From a bacterium (GTDB taxonomy: Bacteria; Hydrothermota; UBA3073; JACQXS01; JAGMCI01): a stretch of DNA of 64,000 nucleotides. This document shows, piece by piece, positions 21,344 through 53,488 of this stretch (the first letter of the stretch is position 1; each line of letters begins with the position of its first letter). Below the pieces are notes generated by a model. That model saw only the letters and a list, made by a program, of their open reading frames with translations, had not been told where the DNA came from and ran no database searches. The stretch lies in assembly GCA_030018315.1 (NCBI GenBank), contig JASEGA010000004.1, forward strand, positions 1 through 64,000, written 5' to 3'. Position numbers and translations under genes: made by a program.

Positions 21344-22840
21344 TTATGGTTTTATTGGCTCTGCATTAAATATCTTAATTGCTTTTTGAACTATTGGCTC
21401 GTCTAATAAGCTACCTGGTTTACTATGATACCCAAATACGATATGAATGGGTTCATTAGTAATTTCGGAGAGCTTATTTTCGATGAGCGATAGTTTTTCT
21501 TCTACTTTAGTTTTGAAAAATTCATTCCTATATGTAACAAGGAGCTCTCCATTTGAGAGTCCAACTGGAGTACCCTGAATAAGAAAACTACTAAGGGAAG
21601 GATTTTCTTCCTCTATCTTCTTTATAAGTGATTTCCATATAGCTTCAAAAGATGGTTCTTGGGGTGCAGATTCGGCTGGGAGGATAGACTCGACAGATTC
21701 AGCAGCTCGGGGTGATACCTCACCAAGATGAGATAAAATTTCATCAATTGAGACCTGGGTACAACTTGAAACTCTTACTAAAGCCTGCTCTAAATATATT
21801 TCTGGAGATAAAACACCACGCATTTCTTTTTCTGTATCAAACAAGAACTTTATAATTCTCAAAATGTGGTGTGAATCAAACTGACTTGCTTGTTTTATAT
21901 ACGGGTCTAAAAATTCAGGCTCCTCGTGTAGGGGTGTATTGCAATACGCCCCTACTTTAATGAGAAAAATAGTCCGTAGATGATCGATAAGACCATCAAT
22001 GAACTCTTTTGGGGCAACTCCCCGGTCTATTGTAGTTCGGACTAAGGTAAGTATAGAAGACAAATCTCTTTGAACAATTGAGTCCACAAGTTTAAAGAAA
22101 ATAGTAGTTTCAGGCAATCCCAATACATCTTGCACATCTTTTTCCTTTATCTTGCCTTGAGCATATGGAATAAGTTGGTCAAACATACCCAATGCATCAC
22201 GTAATGAGCCGTCTACTTTTTGGGCTATCAAATGAGAGGCACTCTCTTCAATCTCCACTCCTTCAAGTGTGGCTACTTTATTTATTTGGGTAATTATCTC
22301 ATTCACACCAATTTTTCTAAAATTAAACCTTTGACACCGTGAAAGGATTGTAAATGGTATTTTGTACGGAGCAGTAGTAGCAAATACAAAAACCACATGC
22401 TTTGGTGGTTCCTCAAGTGTTTTAAGTAACGCATTGAAGGCTGGTTCAGTTAACATATGTACTTCATCAATTATATATATTTTATATCGGCTGTGAGTAG
22501 GTACATACCTCACTCTTTCTCTTAATTCTCTTATCTCATCAATACCACGATTAGATGCACCATCAATTTCAAAAACATCAAGCGACCTACCGTCTCGAAT
22601 CGATTGGCATGACTTGCATAAGTTGCAGGGCGTAGGAGTTGGCCCTTGAGCACAATTTAACGCTTTTGCAAGTATTCTTGCCATAGTAGTCTTGCCTACT
22701 CCTCTAGGACCAGCGAATAGGTAAGCTGAGGCAATCCGGTTAGCTCTTATCCCATTTATAATAGTCTGTGTAATATGAGGTTGCCCAATTACCTCATCAA
22801 AGGTTTGCGGTCTGTATTTAAGGACAAAAACCTGATACAC
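21344..22840 (-). CDS. dnaX: DNA polymerase III subunit gamma/tau
   Basis: A 498-residue clamp-loader ATPase. It shows the N-terminal LKYRPQTFDEVIGQ, Walker A GPRGVGKT, a four-Cys zinc module (CAQGPTPTPCNLCKSC), Walker B IYIIDEVHML and sensor residues, a domain III, and a tau-like C-terminal domain. The start is GTG at 22840. A 28-bp palindrome at 21928-21955 is inserted in frame near residues 295-304, giving VGAYCNTPL; this is a loop position after the ATPase core. A long leader precedes the gene. Confidence 0.93.
   Translation of the reverse strand: MYQVFVLKYRPQTFDEVIGQPHITQTIINGIRANRIASAYLFAGPRGVGKTTMARILAKALNCAQGPTPTPCNLCKSCQSIRDGRSLDVFEIDGASNRGIDEIRELRERVRYVPTHSRYKIYIIDEVHMLTEPAFNALLKTLEEPPKHVVFVFATTAPYKIPFTILSRCQRFNFRKIGVNEIITQINKVATLEGVEIEESASHLIAQKVDGSLRDALGMFDQLIPYAQGKIKEKDVQDVLGLPETTIFFKLVDSIVQRDLSSILTLVRTTIDRGVAPKEFIDGLIDHLRTIFLIKVGAYCNTPLHEEPEFLDPYIKQASQFDSHHILRIIKFLFDTEKEMRGVLSPEIYLEQALVRVSSCTQVSIDEILSHLGEVSPRAAESVESILPAESAPQEPSFEAIWKSLIKKIEEENPSLSSFLIQGTPVGLSNGELLVTYRNEFFKTKVEEKLSLIENKLSEITNEPIHIVFGYHSKPGSLLDEPIVQKAIKIFNAEPIKP
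21928..21955. repeat. Family A palindrome inside dnaX (core CGTATTGCAATACG)
   Basis: A 28-bp palindrome with GTAGGGG and CCCCTAC arms, one mismatch, read in frame as VGAYCNTPL. A perfect 26-bp form lies at 47881-47906. Confidence 0.9.
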
Positions 22841-23092: not shown

Positions 23093-23121
23093 GTTTTTTA
23101 TTAAAATTTTTTTTCACAATA

Positions 23122-23146
23122 TAAGAGTTTGGTTTATCAAACCCTA
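23122..23146. repeat. Decayed family A palindrome
   Basis: TAAGAGTTTGG...ATCAAACCCTA is close to the TTTGATTAATCAAA-core palindromes but has several changes. It lies between the tRNA and the dnaX promoter. Confidence 0.5.
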
Positions 23147-23201
23147 ATTTATTGGACATCATTTTTGAAGCCAACAAGATTTGAACCCGTAAATTTTATT
23201 A

Positions 23202-25594: not shown

Positions 25595-26671
25595 TTATGT
25601 TTTTCGTTTTAGAAGACAGACTTTCTCAGCTCCACATTGGGTTGCACGGTCTATCATATCAACCACTTGGTAATGGTAAAGACCTTCATCAGCTGAGATT
25701 ACACATAGACGGTCTATACTCCTTAGCAATAGTTGACGTATAAGCTCGTTTTGGATTGCAGTATCAGGTGGCATCTTTTCATTATTTATATAAACCATAC
25801 CAGCTTTATCAATATGAATATTAAGTTTAAGCTCTGTCTTCTTTTCGTCTTGCTCAGGTTGTGCTCTTGTTAAAGCAGGGGCTGAAACTGTTATATTTGT
25901 CTGATACATGTTAGGGATAAATATCATAAAAAAGCAAATAATAAGGAGTGCTACATTTATACCTGGAACAAGTGCTTCTGAGGCTTCAGATGGATTTGGT
26001 CTCTCTAAGATGATAGTAAGTTTCCTCCTTATTTTCTCAGATACAGTTTTATCTATTAAATTAGCTTGAGATAAAACCCTTAATATTGAACTACCCACGA
26101 TTTTCATCTCATCCTTTACGGCATCTACTTTACCAGAGAAGAACCCAAATGCTATAGCTGATGGAACAGCTATAATAATACCAATTGCAGTTGTTAATAA
26201 TGCTACAGCTATCCCAGCCATCATTGCAGTTGGAGTGCCACCACCAGTTGCTGCCATAGATGAAAAAGCGTGTACAATACCTATAACTGTCCCTAATAGC
26301 CCAAGTAATGGAGCAATGAAGGAAATTATAGAGAGAACACCTACATGTGACTCAAGAGATGCTCTTTCCCTTAATTGCGTTTTCTCAATCCCTTTTAAAA
26401 TTTCACCCCTTGGCAGGCCAGCAAATTGGATTATATCTTTTGTCATCCTTCCTATAGGGTGATTTGTTGAATTACAGTACTCCACAGCTTCTTTTAGTTC
26501 ACCGTTCTGAATTAAGCTCCTTATCCGTTTTAAGAAGGACGAAGTCTTTAATTTAAGTTTTGCAAAGTATACAGACCTTTCAAACATAGTTCCTAAAGAG
26601 ATCACCGAGATAACAATGAGGATGATGATTGATGGGCTACTTACTAACTTTAAGAAAGGAACGCCAAGCAT
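25595..26671 (-). CDS. ExbB-ExbD fusion protein
   Basis: A 358-residue protein that joins two normally separate subunits. Residues 1-210 are MotA/TolQ/ExbB-like with three membrane helices and the conserved channel segments (SIISFIAPLLGLLGTVIGIV, IAVALLTTAIGIIIAVPSAI). Residues about 235-358 are ExbD-like: a membrane helix (ALLIICFFMIFIPNM) and a periplasmic domain (ELKLNIHIDKAGMVYINNE, ending VVDMIDRATQCGAEKVCLL). The ExbD half lacks the usual Asp in the expected helix position (VALLIICFFMIFIPN), which would matter for proton flow. Free ExbB and ExbD genes flank it. Confidence 0.88.
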   Translation of the reverse strand: MLGVPFLKLVSSPSIIILIVISVISLGTMFERSVYFAKLKLKTSSFLKRIRSLIQNGELKEAVEYCNSTNHPIGRMTKDIIQFAGLPRGEILKGIEKTQLRERASLESHVGVLSIISFIAPLLGLLGTVIGIVHAFSSMAATGGGTPTAMMAGIAVALLTTAIGIIIAVPSAIAFGFFSGKVDAVKDEMKIVGSSILRVLSQANLIDKTVSEKIRRKLTIILERPNPSEASEALVPGINVALLIICFFMIFIPNMYQTNITVSAPALTRAQPEQDEKKTELKLNIHIDKAGMVYINNEKMPPDTAIQNELIRQLLLRSIDRLCVISADEGLYHYQVVDMIDRATQCGAEKVCLLKRKT

Positions 26672-26695: not shown

Positions 26696-27334
26696 TTAAG
26701 ATTTTTGGGTCTTCCAAATGTGTTCAGAAAGTGTTATAACAAGTTCTTTACTACCTATCTCTATTTCTGAACTAAGTGCATCTACTCTACCTGAGAACAT
26801 ACCAAATGTTATAGCAGCAGGTACTGCAATGATAATCCCAATTGCAGTTGTAAGGAGAGCTACAGCAATACCTGATAACATAGCTGCAGGGTCAGCACCA
26901 CCAGCTGCTGCCATAGCAGAGAATGCTTGAATAATACCTATTACTGTACCTAAAAGACCAAGAAGAGGGGCAATGAACGCAGTTATTGATAGGATACCTA
27001 CCCTTTTCTCAAGTATTCCACGTTCTTTTGTATGTGCTTCCTCAATAGCATCGTAAACATCGTCACGCCCAAGTTCTGCATGCGCAAGCCCATTTGCAAT
27101 CACATTAGCAAGAGGATGATACGCAGATTCGCATACTTTTAGGGCTTTCTTGACACCACCTTTGGCAAGCGCAATTTTTATACTTTCCATAAATTCTTTG
27201 GTATCAAACTTTACTCTCCTTAAACTAATCCATCTCTCAATTATTATAACTATAGCAACTACTGCCAGGAATTCGAGAATAGCTATCGATGGGTTTATTA
27301 CAAGCTTTAATATTGGAATACCTATAATTTGCAT
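26696..27334 (-). CDS. exbB: ExbB/TolQ-like proton channel protein
   Basis: A 212-residue inner-membrane protein, a typical ExbB with three helices: an N-terminal one (SIAILEFLAVVAIVIII) and the channel pair (SITAFIAPLLGLLGTVIGIIQAF; AVALLTTAIGIIIAVPAAI). It is closely similar to the ExbB half of the next gene, so the fusion probably came from duplication. First gene of the operon; the ATG at 27334 has a poor ribosome-binding site. Confidence 0.9.
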   Translation of the reverse strand: MQIIGIPILKLVINPSIAILEFLAVVAIVIIIERWISLRRVKFDTKEFMESIKIALAKGGVKKALKVCESAYHPLANVIANGLAHAELGRDDVYDAIEEAHTKERGILEKRVGILSITAFIAPLLGLLGTVIGIIQAFSAMAAAGGADPAAMLSGIAVALLTTAIGIIIAVPAAITFGMFSGRVDALSSEIEIGSKELVITLSEHIWKTQKS

Positions 27335-32986: not shown

Positions 32987-33141
32987 CTTTGTTGAGTAAT
33001 TCGCTTTACAAAACTTGCAGCACCTTGATTGACACCGATTTATGAGATTCTTCACTTTGTTCAGAATGACAAGGTCAAAATTGTCTAAAACCAAATCAGA
33101 GGTTGAAAATCAAAGGTGCCAAAAATATTTATTCAACAAAG
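32987..33141. mobile_element. MITE-like element at the ftsZ stop codon
   Basis: A 155-bp non-coding segment with near-perfect 13-bp inverted termini: CTTTGTTGAGTAA at 32987-32999 and TTATTCAACAAAG at 33129-33141. It is flanked by identical 13-bp direct repeats CAAGTCTTTTTTG (32974-32986 and 33142-33154), a likely target duplication. Its interior holds a dispersed AGATTCTTC/AGAATGACA repeat (33045-33073) and imperfect subterminal inverted repeats. It codes for no protein. The element now supplies the last four codons and stop of ftsZ. Confidence 0.7.
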
Positions 33142-34343
33142 CAAGTCTTTTTTGACTTAAATAAATTAAACTCTTGCAATTTGAGACCATTTTGATGATG
33201 ATGAAGAGAAGAGCGGTCGAGATTGTTGCGGTTTATAGAATTAAGATGTCCTCCAAGAGATTTCATCTTCCTTTTAAATGCGGGGACTTTAAAATTTTCC
33301 TCTACCTTTCTTTCCAATTTTATACCCGTTGCGATTAGAGTAATTTCAATATCCTCTTGAATATTATTATCAAAACAAGCTCCAAATACAATGTTTGCGG
33401 TAGAGTTGGACTTTTCCTGGATGGTTGATAAAATATCGTTTACTTCACAAATAGTGAGGTCTTTACCCCCTATTATATTTACTAAAATACCCTTTGTTCC
33501 CATTATCCCTGTCTCATCAATAAAAGGTGAGTTTATAGCTTGATTCACTGCATTAATAGCTCTGTCCTTTCCTTTTGCCCTGCCTATCCCTACAATTATA
33601 TCGCCAGGCTCTGACATTACTGCACGAATGTCGGCAAAATCAACATTGACAAGCCCGGGGCGAGTGATTATTCCTGATATCCCACGTATTATTTGAGCTA
33701 ATACTTGGTCTACAACTCTAAATGCATCTAAAAAGGGAGTATCCATCCTTACCATAGAGAATAATTTTTGGTTAGGAATAACAATGACTACATCTGTATA
33801 TTTCTTTAGTTCACATATTCCTTCCATTGCTTGGTTCATACGATGGATGCCTTCAGACTCAAACGGCTTTGTTACTACACTAATTGCAAAAGCACCTAAC
33901 TCCTTTACGAGCTGAGCTATTATAGGAGAAGCACCAGTACCAGTGCCGCCCCCCATACCACAAGTTATGAAAACTAAATTTGCACCTTTAAGCATCTCTA
34001 TTATTTCGGCACGATTCTCTTCTATTGCCTTCCTTCCTATGTTAGGGTCACCACCAGCACCGAGTCCACCTGTCAAATTTACACCAATCTGAACTCTATA
34101 GGGAGCACGTGAGGTTGAAAGGGCTTGAATGTCGGTGTTTGTAGCAATAAAATCTACACCATCAATTCCTGCTTCAACCATAGTATTAACGAAGTTACAA
34201 CCACCTCCACCTACTCCAATCACCTTAATCTTTAATGTAGGTGTGTATTGTGATACGCCCCCACAAATGGGTGCAAATTGGAATCGCATGTTACCTGCCT
34301 TGTCCTTGCGAGTCAAGGCTGAGTCTTTCATTCTAGTAGCCAT
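33129..34343 (-). CDS. ftsZ: Cell-division GTPase FtsZ
   Basis: A 404-residue tubulin-like GTPase that forms the division ring. It has the GTP-binding signature GGGTGTGASP, the N-terminal VIGVGGGGCNFVNTM, and T7 loop NVDFADIRAVM. The conserved C-terminal peptide is NFKVPAFKRKM, after a short linker, and is followed by an unusual ~45-residue tail. A 28-bp palindrome at residues ~26-35 gives CGGVSQYTPT just before the core. The reading starts at 34343; an ATG at 34331 overlaps the ftsA stop as ATGA and may be the true start. The last codons come from the MITE-like element. Confidence 0.95.
   Translation of the reverse strand: MATRMKDSALTRKDKAGNMRFQFAPICGGVSQYTPTLKIKVIGVGGGGCNFVNTMVEAGIDGVDFIATNTDIQALSTSRAPYRVQIGVNLTGGLGAGGDPNIGRKAIEENRAEIIEMLKGANLVFITCGMGGGTGTGASPIIAQLVKELGAFAISVVTKPFESEGIHRMNQAMEGICELKKYTDVVIVIPNQKLFSMVRMDTPFLDAFRVVDQVLAQIIRGISGIITRPGLVNVDFADIRAVMSEPGDIIVGIGRAKGKDRAINAVNQAINSPFIDETGIMGTKGILVNIIGGKDLTICEVNDILSTIQEKSNSTANIVFGACFDNNIQEDIEITLIATGIKLERKVEENFKVPAFKRKMKSLGGHLNSINRNNLDRSSLHHHQNGLKLQEFNLFKSKKTCFVE
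34237..34264. repeat. Degenerate family A palindrome inside ftsZ
   Basis: GTAGGTGTGTATTG and TGATACGCCCCCAC form a decayed 28-bp copy of the CGTATTGCAATACG-core palindrome, read as GGVSQYTPT between the poorly conserved N-terminus and the FtsZ core. Confidence 0.7.
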
Positions 34344-38200: not shown

Positions 38201-39256
38201 TAAATTTCCTATACGACTTATATTTAACAATATACCGATACCTATTAAATTAACTAAAAGGTTTGACCCCCCAAACGATATGAATGGGAGTGGTAGCCCT
38301 GTAGTTGGGAAAATACCACATGTTACCCCAATATGAAAGATAGCTGAAATAAAGATTGCAAAACTGAAACCAGTGGCAAGCAAGAAGCCTAATCGGTCAG
38401 GGGCATGATTCCCAACCTTTATACCCCTAATTAAGAGAAGTAAAAACAAAACTGAAACCAAACTGGCCCCTATAAAGCCAAGTTCTTCACCAATTATAGA
38501 AAATATAAAATCCGTATAAGGTTCAGGTAGGAATAGTAGTTTTGCCCTACTATTACCTAATCCCACACCAAATAAGCCACCAGCTCCTACACCATAAATT
38601 GATTGCCTTAATTGGTAACTATCGTGTGAGAAGAAATTTAAGAACCGCAATCTTGCATATGCAAACTGGGTGAGAAAAGCAAATCCCATTCCTATAATAA
38701 TTAATAGAAGAATTAAAAGGTGTAACACCTTTGCACCACCCAAAAACAAAAGTACAAAACAAGTAATACAAAGAACGGCAAGCATTCCAAAAGATGGCTC
38801 TAACCCAATAAGTAAGAAAACAATCCCAAGAACACTAAGAAGTGGAATAATACCCTTCTTTAAATCACTTATATCATTTGTTGAAATAAAATTAGCAGTG
38901 AATATTATAACACCAAGCTTTGCGAGCTCAGAGGGCTGGATAGAAAACCATTTAAATCTCAACCATCTACGTGTCCCATGGATAGATGGACCAAATAAAA
39001 GAACGAATAGAAGGAGTAATAAAGTGAGTCCTAAAATTAGGTAGGAATACTTGCCCCACCAATGATAATCAATTTTGGATACCACTATACATAAAATAGC
39101 ACCAATTCCTAATGGGATAAGCTGCTTTTTTAGAAAAAATGTACTTGTATCCATTAACCTCAAAGCTGAGAAAGCAGAAGAAGAATAAACCATTATAATA
39201 CCTATACCTATGAGGATAAGAGTGATAAGTCCAATGTTAGTATCTGTCTTCCTCAT
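38150..39256 (-). CDS. ftsW: Septal glycosyltransferase FtsW
   Basis: A 368-residue SEDS-family protein with about ten membrane helices that polymerises lipid II at the septum with FtsI. Marks are YSSSAFSALRL near the N-terminus, WFSIQPSELAKLGVI, LRQSIYGVGAGGLFGVGLGNSR, EELGFIG and GLPLPFISFGGSNLL. The last ~17 residues (KLKTQMLRLQLKNQNF) are coded by the inverted repeat at 38108-38200 and look non-native. The start overlaps the murD stop (ATGA). Confidence 0.95.
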   Translation of the reverse strand: MRKTDTNIGLITLILIGIGIIMVYSSSAFSALRLMDTSTFFLKKQLIPLGIGAILCIVVSKIDYHWWGKYSYLILGLTLLLLLFVLLFGPSIHGTRRWLRFKWFSIQPSELAKLGVIIFTANFISTNDISDLKKGIIPLLSVLGIVFLLIGLEPSFGMLAVLCITCFVLLFLGGAKVLHLLILLLIIIGMGFAFLTQFAYARLRFLNFFSHDSYQLRQSIYGVGAGGLFGVGLGNSRAKLLFLPEPYTDFIFSIIGEELGFIGASLVSVLFLLLLIRGIKVGNHAPDRLGFLLATGFSFAIFISAIFHIGVTCGIFPTTGLPLPFISFGGSNLLVNLIGIGILLNISRIGNLKLKTQMLRLQLKNQNF

Positions 39257-40626
39257 AAAGCTTTAACTGCTTGCTTGAATTTTTCACCCCTGTCTCTGAA
39301 ATTAGTAAACCAGTCAAACGATGCAAACCCGGGTGATAAGAGAACTACATCTCCAGGAGAAGCGTGTGAGAAGGCAAGCTTTACAGCTTCGTCCATACTA
39401 TTAGCATGACTATATTCTACTTTTAATAATTTACATAGTTCTTTACTTGATTCACCAATAAGAACTGCATGCTTTACCTTCTCATTTATTGATTTGGCAA
39501 TAAAGGTTATATCAGTTCCCTTTAATTTACCACCTGCTATAATAACCAAATTAGTAGTGAAACTTGATAGAGTCTTCACAAATGATGCTGGATTAGTACA
39601 CATAGAGTTATTTATAAACCTTACTCCACGAACTATACCGATATCCTCAAGCCGATGAGGAACACATTTGAACGACTGAAGCCCATTAAGAATAGAGTCA
39701 CGGGAGATGTCGAGAATCTTAGCTACTACTATAGTTGCTAAATAATCGTCAAGTAAACATTCCCATTTTAGATTTAAGTCACTCACACTAAATAACATAT
39801 CACTATGCCATAAGATATTCCCATTGTTTATCCATACTGTAGGGGTTTGATTAATCAAACCCCTACAGGCACTAAAAAATAACTTTTGTGACTTTACACT
39901 AATTTGTCTTACCTCTGGGTCGTCAAAGTTGAGGACAGCAAAATCTTTAGTAGTTTGATTTGAAAATAGGCGTAATTTTAGTTCACGATATTCTTTAAAA
40001 CTCTCATGTCTATCAAGATGATCGGGCGTTATATTCAAAAGTACACCTATCCAGGGATGGAAAGAATTTATTGATTCAAGCTGGAATGTACTTACCTCTA
40101 CTATTACAGGAATTGTAGGGGTTTGATTAATCAAATCCCTACCTATTACTGATGAGAGTGGAACTCCAAGGTTGCCACACATAAGGGTATCTATTCCAGC
40201 TACCTTCAATACCTCATGTATAAGAAAAGCAGTCGTCGTTTTACCATTCGTGCCAGTTATCCCAATTATTGGGTTTTTAACAAATTGTGATGCAAATTCA
40301 AGCTCCCCTACCACAGGGATGCCTATCTGCCTCGCTTTTGAGAGAATTGGGTGACTTAAAGGAACACCGGGTGATATTATAATCATATCTGAGGCAAGGA
40401 TTTTTTCACTATGCTTACCAAATTCAAATTCAACCCCAGGAAACGTAGACAACAGTGAGGGCGAGCTCACCTCGTCCATCAGTTCGCTAACAAAAACTTT
40501 TACCCCCATATCAAGCAATAATTTTACGCAAGCTTTGCCACTCCTGCCAAATCCAATAACTGAAACTCTCTTACCTTTATAATTTGCTTGTTTTTTCGCA
40601 GAATCCTGTGGAATTGTGTAGCTCAT
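39253..40626 (-). CDS. murD: UDP-N-acetylmuramoylalanine--D-glutamate ligase
   Basis: A 457-residue Mur ligase adding D-Glu. It has VIGFGRSGKACVKLL, Walker A GITGTNGKTTTAFLI, LNITPDHLDRH, NNSMCTNPASFVKTL and LLSPGFASFDWFTNFRDRG. Two copies of the same palindrome are inserted in frame: residues ~161-170 (RDLINQTPT, between SVIG and IPVIVEVSTFQLE) and ~253-263 (CRGLINQTPT, between a surface loop and VWINNGN). Neither falls in a catalytic motif, so the enzyme is probably active. Confidence 0.95.
   Translation of the reverse strand: MSYTIPQDSAKKQANYKGKRVSVIGFGRSGKACVKLLLDMGVKVFVSELMDEVSSPSLLSTFPGVEFEFGKHSEKILASDMIIISPGVPLSHPILSKARQIGIPVVGELEFASQFVKNPIIGITGTNGKTTTAFLIHEVLKVAGIDTLMCGNLGVPLSSVIGRDLINQTPTIPVIVEVSTFQLESINSFHPWIGVLLNITPDHLDRHESFKEYRELKLRLFSNQTTKDFAVLNFDDPEVRQISVKSQKLFFSACRGLINQTPTVWINNGNILWHSDMLFSVSDLNLKWECLLDDYLATIVVAKILDISRDSILNGLQSFKCVPHRLEDIGIVRGVRFINNSMCTNPASFVKTLSSFTTNLVIIAGGKLKGTDITFIAKSINEKVKHAVLIGESSKELCKLLKVEYSHANSMDEAVKLAFSHASPGDVVLLSPGFASFDWFTNFRDRGEKFKQAVKAL
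39837..39868. repeat. Family A palindrome inside murD (core TTTGATTAATCAAA)
   Basis: A perfect 32-bp palindrome, CTGTAGGGG ... CCCCTACAG, read in frame as GLINQTPT. Only one frame of this sequence is free of stop codons. Confidence 0.95.
40115..40142. repeat. Second family A palindrome inside murD
   Basis: A 28-bp palindrome with one mismatch, GTAGGGG ... TCCCTAC, read as RDLINQTPT. Confidence 0.92.
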
Positions 40627-44622: not shown

Positions 44623-46080
44623 TCAGTCACTGGCTCTATAAGGCTGCAAAAGTATAATATTTTGAGCAATCTCCTTAAAAAGAGGAGCACATACATCACC
44701 ACCTAATTTTAAAGTCCCTGGTTCGTCAATAACACAGGCAATTAAGAGTTTAGGATGTTGAGCTGGAAGGAAGCCTATAAAACTTGAAGTAACCTCTGTA
44801 TATTTACCATTTACACACTTTTGGCCAGTCCCTGTTTTACCAGCTATCTCGAGACCTGGAATTTTAGCAAGTATACCACTCCCATTTTCTATTACTCCGT
44901 ATAAAAGATTTTTTACTCTACGTGCTTCAGAAGGGGTCAAAATTTCCCTTACTTTTATAGGCTCTGATTTATAAATTACTTTTCCGCTTGATGAAAGCAT
45001 CTCTTTGACTATCATTGGTTTAAGGAGAATGCCATCGTTTGCAATCGCCTGATAAGCAAAAGTAAGTTGAAGTAAGTTACAAGAAAGTCCTTGCCCAAAT
45101 GCAAGATTAGCAAATTTAAGCTCTGACCAATCAGCTGGAGGTGCTAAAGAGCCTTTAGCCTCACCAGGAAGGATTACACCAGTTGGTACACCAAACCCAA
45201 AAAACCTTGCCCCATTGTAAAATCTGGTTCTGCCAATCAAATTTGCAAGTTTAACAAAGGCTACATTACTGGATTTCCATACAGCTTCAGCAAATGTCAG
45301 AGGGCCATGTGGATGTATATCATTGATTGTCTTGCCTTGAACTGTGATTTTGCTGCTACCGTCCTCAACTATATCAGATAGTGAAACAAGCCCATTTTTA
45401 ATGATAATAGAAATTGGAACAACCTTAAATGTGGAACCGGGTTCAAACTGGACCTGTACTGGTCTATTTATCCAATTGCCAGGACTACAACAAGGAATAG
45501 TAGCCATAGCTAAAATTTCGCCAGTATTGGGCTCAATGATTATTACGCTGCCCGACTTTGCACGCATCTTGGGGAACTTACTTTTTAGAGTCTCTTCCAC
45601 AATTGATTGAATATCAGCATCTATGGTGAGAACAATGTCGTTTCCGCAGGCTCCTTCAGAGACTGGCTGACCTAAAAAGCTACAATAGCCGGGATAAGGA
45701 TAAAGTTTACCGCGAGGCGTTTTACCAAAGATTACAAAATTGGGTTTACCACTTAAGATGGCATCAAATTCATACTCTATACCTTCTAAACCAGTCCCAT
45801 CTTTACCTACAAAACCAAGAAGATTACTAGCAAGAGTTCCAAAAGGATATACCCTTTTTAAGCCAATTGAAGTAGCTAAAATGCGGTAATATCTATCATA
45901 AATTCTACCACGGAGGGGTTGAATTTTAACTTTTGCCTCAGATTGGTGTTTAATTTTAGATCGGAATTCTGAATGATAAAAAAGTTGAAGAGTAGCAAGC
46001 TTGGCAAGGACAAAAAATTCAACCCCTACTGAAAAACAAAATACTAAAATAAGTCTCCTTAAAGGTAATTTATTATTCAT
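44623..46080 (-). CDS. ftsI: Peptidoglycan D,D-transpeptidase FtsI (PBP2/3-type)
   Basis: A 485-residue class B penicillin-binding protein for septal cross-linking. It has an N-terminal membrane helix, a dimerisation domain (LRGRIYDRYYRILA), and a transpeptidase domain with the catalytic Ser in GSTFKVV, SSN in KSSNVAF and KTGT in AGKTGTGQK. There is no PASTA domain. The ATG at 46080 overlaps the ftsL stop; an upstream reading runs through a repeat (TCLPTGRE) and is rejected. Confidence 0.94.
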   Translation of the reverse strand: MNNKLPLRRLILVFCFSVGVEFFVLAKLATLQLFYHSEFRSKIKHQSEAKVKIQPLRGRIYDRYYRILATSIGLKRVYPFGTLASNLLGFVGKDGTGLEGIEYEFDAILSGKPNFVIFGKTPRGKLYPYPGYCSFLGQPVSEGACGNDIVLTIDADIQSIVEETLKSKFPKMRAKSGSVIIIEPNTGEILAMATIPCCSPGNWINRPVQVQFEPGSTFKVVPISIIIKNGLVSLSDIVEDGSSKITVQGKTINDIHPHGPLTFAEAVWKSSNVAFVKLANLIGRTRFYNGARFFGFGVPTGVILPGEAKGSLAPPADWSELKFANLAFGQGLSCNLLQLTFAYQAIANDGILLKPMIVKEMLSSSGKVIYKSEPIKVREILTPSEARRVKNLLYGVIENGSGILAKIPGLEIAGKTGTGQKCVNGKYTEVTSSFIGFLPAQHPKLLIACVIDEPGTLKLGGDVCAPLFKEIAQNIILLQPYRASD

Positions 46081-46336
46081 TTCTCTGCCTGTCGGCAGAC
46101 AGGTCTGACAATTTGTAAAGCCGTGCCACTGAAGCCAACCCACCTAAGGCGGATTCTTTAACTCGTAATTTTTCCACTGTCTCCCTAATTTGATTAAACC
46201 TTTGAGTCTCGTTATAGTATTGGAAAACAAGATTTACAGTGTGCCAATACTCAAATAGATAAAGCAGTGAGAGTAAAAATGCTATAAAGAGCAGCAAACC
46301 TAATTGCTTTATACTAAATCTTATGAAAATTTTCAT
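46073..46336 (-). CDS. ftsL: FtsL-like division protein
   Basis: An 87-residue single-pass protein with a short basic N-terminus, one helix (QLGLLLFIAFLLSLLYLFEYW) and a periplasmic heptad-like region (FNQIRETVEKLRVKESALG). Sequence is weakly conserved in this family; position between rsmH and ftsI decides the call. The C-terminal DLSADRQRNE is coded by the CCTGTC/GACAGG hairpin and may be acquired. Confidence 0.75.
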   Translation of the reverse strand: MKIFIRFSIKQLGLLLFIAFLLSLLYLFEYWHTVNLVFQYYNETQRFNQIRETVEKLRVKESALGGLASVARLYKLSDLSADRQRNE

Positions 46337-47682: not shown

Positions 47683-47880
47683 GAAAAAAATAAAAAAAAT
47701 AGTTGGGGATGTAGTATTTACTTCTAATTAATGGATTAGACCTAATAAAAGAAACAAAAAAGAGGGTAAGACAAGTTCTACCTTTTTAATTCATTGATGT
47801 AAAGCCCGCACCTTCCAAAAGGTGCGGGGCAAGCACATGAATCTGAGTAGGGGCGTTAAATTTAACCCTAAGGCGTATAA

Positions 47881-47906
47881 TAGGGGCGTATTGCAATACG
47901 CCCCTA
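47881..47906. repeat. Family A palindrome, intergenic (core CGTATTGCAATACG)
   Basis: A perfect 26-bp palindrome with TAGGGG and CCCCTA arms, the intact version of the copies in dnaX and ftsZ. Confidence 0.95.
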
Positions 47907-47972
47907 CCTCTGACTTCACCATTGCACAGCATTCTGCGAACTCTCGCTAAAACTATCATTGATGTGGGCAGA

Positions 47973-48004
47973 GTAGGGGTTTGATTAATTAATCAAACCC
48001 CTAC
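47973..48004. repeat. Family A palindrome, intergenic (extended core)
   Basis: A perfect 32-bp palindrome with GTAGGGG/CCCCTAC arms and core TTTGATTAATTAATCAAA, the 28-bp murD/subtilase form with four more central bases. Confidence 0.95.
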
Positions 48005-48010
48005 CTAATC

Positions 48011-50227
48011 TCAATGCAAAACCGTAAGCTTCTTAGTAATAGATTCTTCACTTCGCTCAGAATGACAAGTCAGTTTCAAGAAATAGATACCGTTAGCGAC
48101 CTCTCTCTTATTTGAATCTTGTCCATTCCATGTTACAGTATAATTCCCGGGTCTCTGAATTCCGTCAACAAGTGTGGCTATAAGCTTACCCGATATATCA
48201 TAAACTTTGAGAGTAACAAGACCAGCTGAAGCGGTAGGTACTGAGTAATGGGCAGTAACAACCTTATTCATAGGATTAGGATACACCAGAAATATAGCAA
48301 ATACGTGTGAATCCGTCTTATGTGTAGTTTCTTCAATCCCGGCAATAACTGTCAATCTATTATTTGCTAAGTTATTATCAGCAAGAAAAGAAGCAGAAGC
48401 ATAATAATCAATCTCGTACCCTATTATATCTGGGTCACAAGTCCAATTATCAAACTGCACCTGTTGTGTAGCTCCTGGTGCAAGGTCTGCTACATTAACT
48501 ATACTGTAATAGAATATATATGGAACAATAAGAGTATCTGGTGGGTCATTATTTGGGAAAGTCGTCATAGCTGGGACAAGCACCTCAAATCTAGCCTGTA
48601 ATGATATAGGATTAGTCCCATTATTCCTATAAGTAGCTTTTGGAGTGTAAGTAACTCCACCTTGTGGATAGCCTATTGGCTCATCAATTGATACAACTTC
48701 AGCATCTCCTGAAGTGACTGGCACCCTAAAATAGATAAAAGGATTCTGGTTTGGGTCCAAGCTACCACCTATAATATCATCATGGCTGTTTAAATCCCAT
48801 TCGTAAAATATATGCAAATTGCTATTCACAACTGGAGCAAGTGCAGCAAATACTTCACAGTTCTGAGGTGTCATAGTCAGATTTATCTTAGGTGCCCATG
48901 TCACACCTCTATCAAGTGAATATGAAGCATAGATTTCACCTACTTCGTAACCTTGTGGGTTTGTCACATTATAAGGGAATTCAACCCAAGTAGCATAAAG
49001 ATATTTTGTGGTAGGGTCTTCACCTATCTGCGGTTTAGCATTCCATGGTCCGTAATAAGGATAGAGATGGCCGAAATCAGCTATTGCTACTTCAGATGGT
49101 AATGGGTGTGTACTAATGAGACTCATAGCATTAGTTTCAACACTGTAATGCCAAAGAACACCTGCAAGGAATGGATAATAATAACCGGGCTGTGGTGTGC
49201 CTAATGAAGCATCAGTAACTATATGAAGGTTATCATCTGAGTCGTATATTCCATAAGTGTTTCCTATAGAACTACGTAACTCATCTAAATGATAAGCCCT
49301 ACCAGGTGGGAGTGGTATCAAGTTTGTAATGTCAACTCTATCTCCCCAGGTAGCACCACCATCTTGTGACTCTTTATAGAATATGTGTCCATTGTAAACT
49401 CCATGCTCTGGTCCTACATCTTTCCCATATACTATACACATTTTTTGTGAGCTCTTAGATGCAAAAGCATTGTCGGAAAGTCCTCCAAATGTGTCTACAA
49501 CTACCCAATTAGACCAGGTTGCTCCGCCATCTGTAGAGCGAGAGTAGTAACATTTATCACGTGTATGAGGTTGCCCCGGTGTACTATCATCTTTAGCAAC
49601 AACAATCATATTATTAGAACCATCAACTGCAATCCTTGGCCATATACTGTGACCTGTTGGATGACTAGGTGAGAAAGGTAAATCATATCCATCAAATGTC
49701 CCCATCCCTGGAATTGCATCTATCCATACAGAACTACGAAACTCACTTGCTCCGGCTCCATATTTTCTATGTAAAGCTACAACTGCAGCTCCATCATTTT
49801 TAATATCAAGCGTTCCATAACCATCGCGTACCTCCTCTTGAACCGGTATTCCACCACCGAGCCCCGTCCCAAATAACCAGCCCGTCCCATCATTGCAGTT
49901 ATAGAACATATGTCGCTCAGGGGGTGGGACTTGATGCATAAAGAGAGTATGAATATATCCATCACTCGGATTACATACAATTCGTCTATGAGGAGCTAAA
50001 TTCCATTGCCGGTCATATCTACTGGAACCGAGTGTATCACCTGGTGAAAAAGTAGAATAAATTGGAGCTAATCCTGCCACTTCTCCTTTTAAATCATACT
50101 CTCTCAAGATACCCGGTTTCTTCGCATCTCTCGGAATCTCCTTTTTCATCAGTATAGGAGTCCCAGAAATAGGGATAGCGAAGAGCAACATCATCCCGAT
50201 ATAAATTGGGGCTATACATTTACGCAT
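48011..50227 (-). CDS. Exported Asp-box beta-propeller protein with T9SS-like C-terminus
   Basis: A 738-residue secreted protein with a signal peptide (about 1-22). Asp-box (sialidase/BNR-type) repeats are at STDGGATWSN, SQDGGATWGD and SLDRGVTWAP, so a propeller fold is likely, though no sialidase active-site Arg set is clear. A CARDB-like Ig region (about 535-640) and a FlgD/T9SS-like C-terminal domain (VYPNPMNKVVTAHYSV, VYDISGKLI, VTWNGQDSNKREVANGIYFLKL) follow. The final part, TCHSERSEESITKKL, is coded by a widespread short repeat. GGAGG precedes the ATG. Confidence 0.75.
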   Translation of the reverse strand: MRKCIAPIYIGMMLLFAIPISGTPILMKKEIPRDAKKPGILREYDLKGEVAGLAPIYSTFSPGDTLGSSRYDRQWNLAPHRRIVCNPSDGYIHTLFMHQVPPPERHMFYNCNDGTGWLFGTGLGGGIPVQEEVRDGYGTLDIKNDGAAVVALHRKYGAGASEFRSSVWIDAIPGMGTFDGYDLPFSPSHPTGHSIWPRIAVDGSNNMIVVAKDDSTPGQPHTRDKCYYSRSTDGGATWSNWVVVDTFGGLSDNAFASKSSQKMCIVYGKDVGPEHGVYNGHIFYKESQDGGATWGDRVDITNLIPLPPGRAYHLDELRSSIGNTYGIYDSDDNLHIVTDASLGTPQPGYYYPFLAGVLWHYSVETNAMSLISTHPLPSEVAIADFGHLYPYYGPWNAKPQIGEDPTTKYLYATWVEFPYNVTNPQGYEVGEIYASYSLDRGVTWAPKINLTMTPQNCEVFAALAPVVNSNLHIFYEWDLNSHDDIIGGSLDPNQNPFIYFRVPVTSGDAEVVSIDEPIGYPQGGVTYTPKATYRNNGTNPISLQARFEVLVPAMTTFPNNDPPDTLIVPYIFYYSIVNVADLAPGATQQVQFDNWTCDPDIIGYEIDYYASASFLADNNLANNRLTVIAGIEETTHKTDSHVFAIFLVYPNPMNKVVTAHYSVPTASAGLVTLKVYDISGKLIATLVDGIQRPGNYTVTWNGQDSNKREVANGIYFLKLTCHSERSEESITKKLTVLH
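48041..48069. repeat. HSERSEES-type dispersed repeat inside the Asp-box gene
   Basis: AGATTCTTCACTTCGCTC then AGAATGACAAG, differing at two of 29 positions from the copy at 33045-33073. Read on the minus strand it gives CHSERSEES within the last 20 residues. Confidence 0.85.
50195..50211. repeat. CCCGAT/ATTGGGG short palindrome in a signal peptide
   Basis: CCCGATATAAATTGGGG lies in the first codons of the Asp-box gene. Similar sequences are at 26681-26694 (CCCAATTTATCGGG) and 62637-62653 (CCCCGATAAAATTGGGG). Confidence 0.55.
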
Positions 50228-50242
50228 ATTACACCTCCTTTC

Positions 50243-53200
50243 CTATCGGATAAGAAGCATCTTGCCCACCTTGACCCACCTTGTAGTAAGGCGGGCTCGG
50301 CGAGGCAGGTTTGTTTTTGAGGTAATACCTCTTGCAAAGCCAGATACTTCTAACCGATAAAAATATATACCACAAGCTACTTTATCCCCTTTCTCATTAG
50401 TACCGTCCCACACGACGGTAATTGGTAATTGGTAATTGGTAATTGGTAAAGACTTAACTAATCTGCCAGTTAAATCATAAATTTGCAGTGTAGGGGTTTG
50501 ATTAATCAAACCCCTACCTAATCCCTGAGCACTAATCACTGTCTTATTGGTGAATGGATTTGGGAAGCAAGTAAGCTTTACTTTAGCGAGGCTGAAGCCT
50601 TGCACCACATCTTCATTTACTCCAGTAAGTACATCCTTATAATTACCTGTCCTATGTAAATTACCTCTATATGTGTTCCAATACCTGTTATCACCTCCTT
50701 TCGCTTTAAAATCAATCACTTCCATCCCTGTATTATTTCCAATCCCAATTTCAAGGTCACTGTCTCCATCCAAGTCATCAATAGAGGGCGATGATTGGAT
50801 TCCACTTCCTGTATTTACTGGAAAACAAGTAATAGGGGTTGCATCCTGATAGAGTAGATATAATTTACCATCACCTGCTCCAAATACAACTTCTGGCTTC
50901 CCGTTTCCATCCATATCAGAAAATATAGGTGAAGTAACACTACCTCCAGTACTATAAGGGAATCCGGGAATGGTATCCCCATAAGATTTGAATGCATAAA
51001 TTTTGCCATTAGTAGAGCCACAAAAAATTTCAGGTAAACCGTCCCCATCAATATCACAAAAAGAGGGTGCGCCCTTAAGGTTGCCACCTGCATGTAGAAC
51101 ATTTAACGGATTACCCTGATAATCGAACACATATAGATTGCCATCTGCACATCCACAAACAACTTCTAATTTTTCGTCCTCATTAAAATCTGCAATTGAT
51201 GGTGGAGCCCAAATCTGGCCACTGACCTCATTTGGCCAACCAGTGAGAGTGTCTCCATTAGATGAGATAACATAAAGTTTCTTATTATAGGTACCTACTG
51301 CAATGTCTAAAACATTGTCTGCATCTACATCACCAACTGCAACTCCACCAATAATTGCACCATCTAATTGGTATGGAAATGGACCAAATTGTGTCCCATC
51401 GTGATTTATTACATAAAGATTGCCAGAAAAATCACCAAATATTATTTCTAAATCACCATTGTTGTCCAAATCTGCTAATGTAGGCGTTCCCATGAGATAA
51501 TTAGATGCACCGAATTTTAAACCTATTGCTCCATCCGGCTCAATTATGTATAGAGTATCATCTTTTGACCCGACCACAATTTCTAATGTCCCGTTATTAT
51601 CAACATCGCCGATTGCGGGTGCGCCTTGAATTTGGTTGCCAGTTTTCACAGGAAACCCTGCTTCAACCACACCGCGATAATTCCAAACCCACACATTGCC
51701 ACGAAGGTCGCCAGCAATTATCTCTTGTTCTCCATCATTGTCAATATCAACAATAGCCGGTGAACTTACTCCAGTTCCTAAATTAACTGGCCACCCAAAT
51801 TGGTTAAGTGTTACTTCAATCCCGAACTCAATAGTGTCTGAATAAGGATAAGGGGTGCTTTGATTAGCAGAAATGATGAGCTCAAATGGTATTATACTAG
51901 GGGTTGTTTCAGATAGGATTTGAGCCTTAAACCTTGTAGAATTCGACCCAGTAGAACCACTGAGAATATCACCATAAGATGAGGTTGAATCTATCATCAC
52001 TATGTAAGGGCTTGGGCTTTGTACAACCCCTGTAACACCGAGTGCATCTGCCCATCCTGAACTATTTTGGATTACTACATTAAATTCCATTGTCTCACCC
52101 GGATTTATAAGTGAGTCACCATCCCCTTCTACTTCATATACACTTTGTGAATAATAGGTTAATTTAGGATAGTTACTCCCTGCTATTGCATTATAAACAT
52201 TAATCCTACCATATCCAAGTTGTCCCTCATATCCGGGATTAAGATGGTCTATAGAGTCACAGGCTGAAAATATGATATTTTCAATTGTAGTATTAGAAGC
52301 ACCCGGATTACTGCATTTAACGAGAGCGACAAGACCAGCTACTTCTGGACATGATGCAGAGGTCCCATACTGAGATGTATATCCACCACCTGGAGTGCAT
52401 CCATATATCCCATCACCGGGAGCACAGACATCTATGTACCAACCATAATTAGAATAGGACGATTTTCTGTCCGATTGATTAGTAGCCCCAACTCCAATAA
52501 CATTCTCATAAGCAGGCGGATACGAAGCCTGTGATATATTTTCATTCCCACCAGCAGCACAAATTACAAGCCCAGCATCGTATGCGGATTGAATAGCATT
52601 GTTTAAACTAGAATTATAAGAATAACTACCCCAACTGCAACTTATCACACATGCACCTTTAGTTCTTGCATAGCGCATAGCATTAATAGCAGCCCAGATA
52701 GATATAGCACCCGGATTTCCGGAAGCAGTACATCTAAAAGCTATACTTTTGCAGTTAAATGCTACACCAGCAATCCCTCTTGAGTTATCAGTGCAAGCAT
52801 TAGCTATCCCATTACACCAGGTGCCATGAAATTCACCCCCATAAGTAGGGGTTGGGTCATTGTCATTCGTCGTCCAATCCCACCCTATAAGGTCATCTAC
52901 ATACCCATTATTATCATCATCTACATCATTTAGGTCATCTGTATCAAATATTACACCATCCCCATCTATATCTTCACCCGGATTAACCCATATATTATTC
53001 TTAAGGTCAGGATGATTCCAATCACAGCCCCCATCAACAACAGCAATAACTACTGAAGGGTCACCTGTCTGATAATCCCAACCTTGAGGAGCTTCAATTC
53101 TTGTAAGATTCCATTGACTTGAAAAGTAAGGGTCGTTAGGTGTCTTGTATAGCTTGCATAAATGGTCAGGGTCAACACTTTCTATATTGGGATTCGCACT

Positions 53201-53488
53201 ATATCTCTCAATAAAATCAGATACTTGCTTATCTTCCAAAAATTTAAATAACCATACTCTATCTAATCCAAATTTCTTATCAATGCTATCAGGTTTACCT
53301 CTTACTAAGGGTTCCATAGCATATACACCAAATTCTTGGTTTAGTGATTTAAGAGCTGATATATGAGACCCACTTTTAAGTGTTACAATTGCATGTCCAG
53401 GAATATATTCGTCTGTCATTCCGTAAGCAAAACTCATTCTAAGAATAACATATAAACAGATAGCAAAGTTGTAAATCATTAATCGCAT
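50243..53488 (-). CDS. Secreted subtilase (S8) with FG-GAP-type propeller and C-terminal sorting domain
   Basis: A 1081-residue protease. It has a signal peptide, an I9/fervidolysin-like propeptide (about 25-115), an S8 catalytic domain with Asp152 (VVDGG), His221 (FHGTW), Asn315 (AAGGNEN) and Ser377 (GTSASCP), an Ig-like region, and a FG-GAP/VCBS-type propeller (about 575-930; repeats like PAIVDIDNDGEQEIIAG). The C-terminal FlgD/T9SS-like domain (CFPNPFTNKTVI, IYDLTGRLVKSL, VVWDGTNEKG) contains a palindrome (GLINQTPT) and a heptamer array. The last residues include TNLPRRARLTTRWVKVG from another repeat. Confidence 0.88.
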   Translation of the reverse strand: MRLMIYNFAICLYVILRMSFAYGMTDEYIPGHAIVTLKSGSHISALKSLNQEFGVYAMEPLVRGKPDSIDKKFGLDRVWLFKFLEDKQVSDFIERYSANPNIESVDPDHLCKLYKTPNDPYFSSQWNLTRIEAPQGWDYQTGDPSVVIAVVDGGCDWNHPDLKNNIWVNPGEDIDGDGVIFDTDDLNDVDDDNNGYVDDLIGWDWTTNDNDPTPTYGGEFHGTWCNGIANACTDNSRGIAGVAFNCKSIAFRCTASGNPGAISIWAAINAMRYARTKGACVISCSWGSYSYNSSLNNAIQSAYDAGLVICAAGGNENISQASYPPAYENVIGVGATNQSDRKSSYSNYGWYIDVCAPGDGIYGCTPGGGYTSQYGTSASCPEVAGLVALVKCSNPGASNTTIENIIFSACDSIDHLNPGYEGQLGYGRINVYNAIAGSNYPKLTYYSQSVYEVEGDGDSLINPGETMEFNVVIQNSSGWADALGVTGVVQSPSPYIVMIDSTSSYGDILSGSTGSNSTRFKAQILSETTPSIIPFELIISANQSTPYPYSDTIEFGIEVTLNQFGWPVNLGTGVSSPAIVDIDNDGEQEIIAGDLRGNVWVWNYRGVVEAGFPVKTGNQIQGAPAIGDVDNNGTLEIVVGSKDDTLYIIEPDGAIGLKFGASNYLMGTPTLADLDNNGDLEIIFGDFSGNLYVINHDGTQFGPFPYQLDGAIIGGVAVGDVDADNVLDIAVGTYNKKLYVISSNGDTLTGWPNEVSGQIWAPPSIADFNEDEKLEVVCGCADGNLYVFDYQGNPLNVLHAGGNLKGAPSFCDIDGDGLPEIFCGSTNGKIYAFKSYGDTIPGFPYSTGGSVTSPIFSDMDGNGKPEVVFGAGDGKLYLLYQDATPITCFPVNTGSGIQSSPSIDDLDGDSDLEIGIGNNTGMEVIDFKAKGGDNRYWNTYRGNLHRTGNYKDVLTGVNEDVVQGFSLAKVKLTCFPNPFTNKTVISAQGLGRGLINQTPTLQIYDLTGRLVKSLPITNYQLPITVVWDGTNEKGDKVACGIYFYRLEVSGFARGITSKTNLPRRARLTTRWVKVGKMLLIR
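50418..50445. repeat. Heptanucleotide array (TAATTGG)4
   Basis: Four identical 7-bp units code for LPITNYQLPIT between LVKSL and VVWDG in the subtilase C-terminal domain. This is the same structural place as the array in the C25 protease. Here the frame is intact. Confidence 0.92.
50490..50517. repeat. Family A palindrome inside the subtilase gene
   Basis: A perfect 28-bp palindrome with GTAGGGG/CCCCTAC arms and core TTTGATTAATCAAA, read as RGLINQTPT just before LQIYDLTGR. Confidence 0.95.

Follow-up and report, generated by a model that had tools for sequence, protein, structure and literature searches.

Double-foot REP palindromes in frame within murD and other genes of a Hydrothermota bacterium

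Introduction

The murD gene in this stretch of DNA (39253..40626, minus strand; TIGR01087, 380.7 bits) encodes the heptapeptide LINQTPT twice, each time from a short palindrome, and the same palindrome encodes the same peptide in a subtilase-like protein. What is this element, and how does it come to be read in frame in unrelated proteins? An earlier sequence-only reading had likened it to the palindromic elements of Rickettsia and implied that it was otherwise unknown. Here we examined the window (the whole 64,000-nucleotide stretch), further parts of the same genome, and related and unrelated genomes. The element is a double-foot REP of the kind linked to subclass 2.4 of TnpA_REP/RAYT and not a new class, where the assignment to subclass 2.4 rests on a match to the published description rather than on a tree with reference sequences. 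Its unusual feature is its location, since about 70% of the copies in this order of bacteria lie in long ORFs.

Results

The palindrome and its reading frame

GTAGGGGTTTGATTAATCAAACCCCTAC is a 28-bp palindrome found exactly at 39839-39866 in murD and at 50490-50517 in the subtilase-like gene (50243..53488, minus strand), and a further copy at 40115-40142 in murD differs from it by one mismatch. The span of 39837-39868 previously given for the first copy denotes the identical copy with a few flanking bases included. Read on the minus strand, the two murD copies give the peptides (C)RGLINQTPT and (G)RDLINQTPT, which appear in the ORF translation as ACRGLINQTPTV and GRDLINQTPTI, and the third copy gives GRGLINQTPT (GRGLINQTPTL in the ORF) in the C-terminal sorting-type domain of the subtilase-like protein. 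Coordinates and translations thus agree with what had been read from the sequence, namely two copies in murD and one in the subtilase, each read as LINQTPT. The claim that a single frame is free of stops also held: frame 0 reads GTA GGG GTT TGA, frame 2 meets TAG, and frame 1 is open (xGT AGG GGT TTG ATT AAT CAA ACC CCT ACy). Because this core, termed core A, is its own reverse complement, the frames behave in the same way on both strands. All 30 genic core-A copies (30/30) use the permitted frame, as had been proposed, but an uninterrupted ORF permits nothing else, so that this uniformity does not count as independent evidence.

In the window, six core matches were observed against 1.13 expected, and none of 100 shuffles reached six. 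Further copies, for which a genome-wide search had been suggested, were abundant: core A occurs at 38 places with three mismatches or fewer, 19 of them perfect, and the same search with a reversed control pattern returned none. Core A had no exact match among IMG/VR viral contigs, and literature text searches with the strings LINQTPT, GTAGGGG, and HSERSEES yielded nothing relevant.

A family with common ends and several cores

Searching the genome for the ends alone (GTAGGGG-N-CCCCTAC) gave 38 strict places with several cores. Core A is one of at least six sub-families that have the ends GTAGGG…CCCTAC in common and differ in their palindromic cores: core A (TTTGATTAATCAAA, 39 members in 728 kb), core B (CGTATTGCAATACG), core C (CGGGGTAACCCCG and CGAGGTAACCTCG, 27 bp), core D (CAATTCATGAATTG), core E (GTAGGGACACGCCATGGCGTGTCCCTAC), and core F (TTCAAAATTTTGAA). 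The elements are near-perfect inverted repeats of 27-28 bp, with one of 32 bp, and carry GTAG at the 5' end on both strands; the peptides that they encode are core-specific (RGLINQTPT, VGAYCNTPL, CRGGVTPPL or VGAGLPRPY, VGAIHELPL, and VGTRHGVSL). Altogether 78 family members were found in the 728 kb of this genome examined, which comprised the window and the contig stretches holding sites; other genomes were covered as samples. Strict end matches occurred in 40 of the 150 genomes searched as relatives, and core A itself was found in a single relative (G004).

Several members besides the LINQTPT copies lie in the window. A core-B palindrome at 21928..21955 is read on the minus strand as VGAYCNTPL in dnaX (DNA polymerase III gamma/tau; 21344..22840, minus strand; TIGR02397, NF004046), and a degenerate core-B copy at 34237..34264 encodes CGGVSQYTPT near the N-terminus of ORF 33129-34343 (minus strand), a putative FtsZ judging from its motif. 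The intergenic members are a core-B palindrome at 47880..47907, a 32-bp core-A variant (GTAGGGGTTTGATTAATTAATCAAACCCCTAC) at 47973..48004, and a strongly degenerate core-A-like copy at 23120..23151.

Orthologous sites

We compared the host genes with their orthologues in 1.37 Mb of a genome of the same family (G001). The orthologues align across the site without the element, and most of the sites in G001 are empty. Relative to G001, the net gain was nine residues in dihydroorotase, eight in MtaB, six in DnaX, and five in IleRS; it was mostly +4 to +9 residues in well-aligned hosts and locally about +1 and 0 for the two MurD copies, and a clean 30-bp insertion was not seen among the aligned hosts. 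Hence, to call the element "inserted", as had been done, is slightly off: because the net gain is usually fewer than ten residues, the element apparently takes the place of some loop residues. In the 728-kb member set, duplications of the target site (2-9 bp) were no more frequent than expected by chance, and the base just outside the element was T at 54% of the ends. A single-sequence AlphaFold model of MurD was unusable (mean pLDDT 40.7), so that the loop positions rest on alignments.

In agreement with the sequence-only reading, the peptide is not ancestral to MurD, since the sites are empty or different in the relatives aligned. All aligned relatives have a short, variable loop at the first site. 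At the second, two related genomes (G007 and G008) have CKGNSRTAPT, encoded by a decayed palindrome with another core at an equal position and in an equal phase. Furthermore, in the sorting-type domain of G007, the loop that holds GRGLINQTPT here holds VGVQYIEPL, encoded by core TTCAATATATTGAA in a different phase. These alignments indicate that the same loops are occupied repeatedly by palindromes of different cores in related genomes. The case of the sorting-type domain fits independent insertion, and that of the second MurD site fits either insertion or replacement of the core. According to the latter explanation, old sites stay in place while their cores are overwritten through the conserved ends, by gene conversion or RAYT-driven exchange, and shared sites are not fresh insertions. 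The equal position and phase at the second MurD site speak for such an exchange, as do the many copies that are perfect despite diverged hosts, but the different phase in the sorting-type domain and the empty state of most orthologous sites in G001 make it an unlikely account of the element as a whole.

Location within genes

Of the 78 members in this genome, 58 lie wholly within called ORFs, two extend across an ORF end, and 18 lie between genes, compared with 88%, 4%, and 8%, respectively, for random 28-bp windows. The odds of genic retention relative to random insertion are therefore about 0.29, where about one-third would be expected if only the frame mattered, a figure to be read loosely because it rests on greedy ORF calls. 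The share of genic copies in this genome and relatives of the same order was 49/71 (approximately 70%), versus 12/68 (approximately 18%) elsewhere (Fisher p 9e-10), when the count was limited to ORFs of 150 aa or more and a single strict definition of the palindrome was applied; the comparison group of 68 consisted of non-RAYT copies from other classes of the phylum and from other phyla. With ORFs of at least 80 aa, the counts were 53/71 in the order and 15/68 outside it. In both comparisons, the outside sample consists partly of RAYT flanks and the copies are phylogenetically non-independent. Within the order, the copies of GTTAAATTTAAC in one genome (G002) are intergenic. A REP in the strict sense is mainly extragenic, which does not describe the copies of this genome.

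Other hosts identified by NCBIfam include leuS, ileS, pheT, obgE, pyrC, dxr, mtaB, prmC, a TsaC-type synthase gene, coaE, plsY, uppP, purL/Q (two copies), dprA, and hypA, in addition to dnaX, as well as genes for a hydrogenase maturation protease, an asparagine synthase-like protein, and an Rrf2 regulator. The LINQTPT palindrome also stands at an equal position in five paralogous C-terminal sorting-type domains (C3:36228, C5:29613, C6:26765, and C6:29033 in this genome, and 50490 in the window), which means that it was copied along with the domain.

The many genic copies might mean that the encoded peptides were selected for, as exapted linkers or surface patches; the excess of genic copies in this order and the perfect copies in several essential genes would agree with this. 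On the other hand, many cores give unrelated peptides, two frames are used, the hosts have no common function, and decayed copies alter residues. Moreover, one decayed copy keeps its pairing through changes in both arms (GTATGGG...CCCATAC), which points to copying at the DNA level. We thus consider selection for the peptides improbable.

Other repeats were seen in the same DNA. A second dispersed repeat, TCCACAGGATTCTGCGAA, is located at 40595-40612, at the N-terminus of murD, and at ten other places in the 728 kb; ten of the 11 copies are in called ORFs, in several frames and both orientations. With the two core-A copies, MurD thus holds three copies of dispersed repeats. The repeat TGTCATTCTGAGCGAAGCGAAGAATCT, which encodes CHSERSEES, occurs at 48051 in the window (C-terminus of ORF 48011-50227) and at seven other places, and is mostly intergenic. 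The palindrome CCTGTCGGCAGACAGG, read as CLPTGR or CRQTG, occurs at 46088 and five other places, and its copy in the window falls in what is probably an upstream (N-terminal) extension of ORF 44623-46143, which encodes a penicillin-binding protein. Two direct repeats of 269 nt (26121-26389 and 26778-27046) are 72% identical at a spacing of 657.

Link to RAYT transposases

In a Y1 transposase gene of this genome (C1:7522-7983), the HUH motif is immediately followed by a perfect core-C palindrome (MPNHIHGIIFIYCRGGVTPPL), and a second RAYT-like gene (C5 near 21,118) has a core-E-like palindrome at an equal position after HUH. By inspection, both ORFs look frameshifted, the former near the N-terminus and the latter after the catalytic tyrosine region. 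A protein search of the genome, which is 96.5% complete, found two RAYTs of the clade, with cores C and E, and none bearing core A; at this completeness the absence is not decisive, and family membership does not depend on whether one particular core has its RAYT. REPs were absent within 1 kb of these two RAYTs and present near several RAYTs of other genomes.

We collected 80 RAYT loci from GTDB genomes by protein profile alone, disregarding palindromes; their sources include Proteobacteria, Calditrichaeota, Planctomycetes, Nitrospirae, Chloroflexi, Cyanobacteria, Gemmatimonadetes, Ignavibacteria, Atribacteria, Zixibacteria, Latescibacterota, and WOR-3. Of 81 RAYT ORFs, 55 have an open-frame GTAGG...CCTAC palindrome in the loop that follows the HUH strand, between the HuH and Y motifs (38 of the 55 without mismatch, with many cores), versus four for a control stretch taken from the 5' end of these ORFs. 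Furthermore, the flanks of the RAYT genes contained 22 copies of the gene's own core, in 12 of the 55 loci, versus 0-3 per trial when cores were swapped. Whole genomes agree with this flank test, as in Gracilimonas, where the core type of the RAYT, with its close variants, accounts for all 18 copies. In one locus (L067, G015), tandem core-B-like palindromes with a spacing of 32 bp lie at about 688-779, near a RAYT gene that bears this core too. The RAYT proteins matched the NCBIfam model REP_Tyr_transpos (NF047646) with an E value of 6e-19, under the equivalog cut-off. For the Nitrosomonas halophila RAYT, an AlphaFold model built from a 42-sequence alignment (mean pLDDT 87.4) had TnpA_REP bound to a REP hairpin as its best PDB match (4er8, E 1.3e-7), and the embedded peptide is predicted to lie in a low-confidence loop at about residues 89-110.

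These results bear on the possibility that the palindromes form a family like that of Rickettsia, with an unknown mobilizer of its own and unrelated to RAYTs. Their in-frame location in unrelated ORFs, as in Rickettsia, and the failure to find a core-A RAYT in the genome would suit this explanation, but the ends are GTAG and not CGTC, ends and length are identical to those of the RAYT-embedded palindromes, and the genome's own RAYTs bear sister cores that are likewise dispersed in it; we regard such an origin as very improbable. That the palindrome is retained for gene expression, as a regulatory element, a terminator, or a site bound by protein, is disfavored by the distribution of the copies and has a negligible probability: perfect palindromes can be binding sites and can form RNA hairpins, but most copies are in functionally unrelated ORFs, each of several cores is linked to a RAYT, and the core-A pattern is missing from nearly all relatives.

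Discussion

Taking these results together, the palindrome in murD is very probably a double-foot REP that was spread by a RAYT-type nuclease without target-site duplication and is tolerated in gene loops. When single-stranded, the element would fold into a hairpin with a GTAG foot. TnpA_REP has been shown to cleave REP hairpins at CT (or CA), with GTAG as the guide (PMC8266576), and a RAYT, the HUH/Y1 single-strand nuclease TnpA_REP, would bind the hairpin, cut and rejoin single strands, and leave a new copy without target-site duplication. Owing to the symmetry of the element, either strand might be used. Most genic insertions would then be removed by selection, and the survivors would be those in which the frame was kept through the one open frame of the core and the site was a surface loop, where a few residues are added or replaced. 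The RAYT that spread core A may have been lost since or be missing from the assembly, or core A may have been spread in trans. The absence of a core-A RAYT and the two frameshifted RAYT genes suggest that the system was recently active and is now decaying, or that the assembly is incomplete.

As for the location, a possible though doubtful explanation is that double-foot REPs of this order preferentially insert into expressed genes, for example via single-stranded DNA exposed by transcription, or are preferentially kept there, steadily supplying short new protein segments to essential enzymes while different cores recolonize the same loops. REPs are extragenic by name, and most copies of this lineage are read in frame as part of genes, many of which are usually essential. 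The genic copies therefore constitute a natural catalogue of protein sites that tolerate an insert of 9-10 residues, and the lineage allows one to ask if proteins are shaped by repeat insertion in organisms other than Rickettsia. In addition, the palindrome embedded in a RAYT gene marks the core of the enzyme, so that enzyme-substrate pairs can be proposed from sequence.

The likeness to Rickettsia palindromic elements extends to dispersed palindromes that are read in frame as peptides in unrelated, likely functional genes, but not to kinship. In Rickettsia, RPE-4 and RPE-6 bear a CGTC tag (Di Nocera et al., 2013, PMC3733652), in contrast to the GTAG/CTAC ends found here; RPE-1 is described as longer, and the CGTC repeats have no associated transposase. 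Nor is the element an unknown one, as had been implied, because its ends, size, and embedding in RAYT genes place it with the double-foot REPs. The REPs of subclass 2.4 TnpA_REP have a "double foot" with the ends GT[AG]G and C[TC]AC and sit in frame inside tnpA_REP genes, between the HuH and Y motifs (Quentin et al., 2018, PMC6006769), so that palindromes inside RAYT genes were already known. The present palindromes likewise have a GT[AG]G foot at the 5' end and its complement C[TC]AC at the 3' end (GTAG and CTAC), are dispersed in many copies, and occur in frame in tnpA_REP genes of many phyla, including both RAYT-like genes of this genome; unlike those REPs, their commonest core here is without its own RAYT in the genome, and the copies are mostly in ordinary genes rather than intergenic. 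GTAG-tagged REPs, too, lie mostly between genes, and several species also have copies that are in frame inside genes (Di Nocera et al., 2013, PMC3733652). They resemble the present elements in being short GTAG-tagged palindromes associated with RAYTs and in having some in-frame genic copies, including copies in DNA repair genes and tRNA synthetases. However, their GTAG is unpaired and at one end only, whereas both ends are paired here, and they are mostly extragenic, whereas the palindromes of this lineage are mostly genic.
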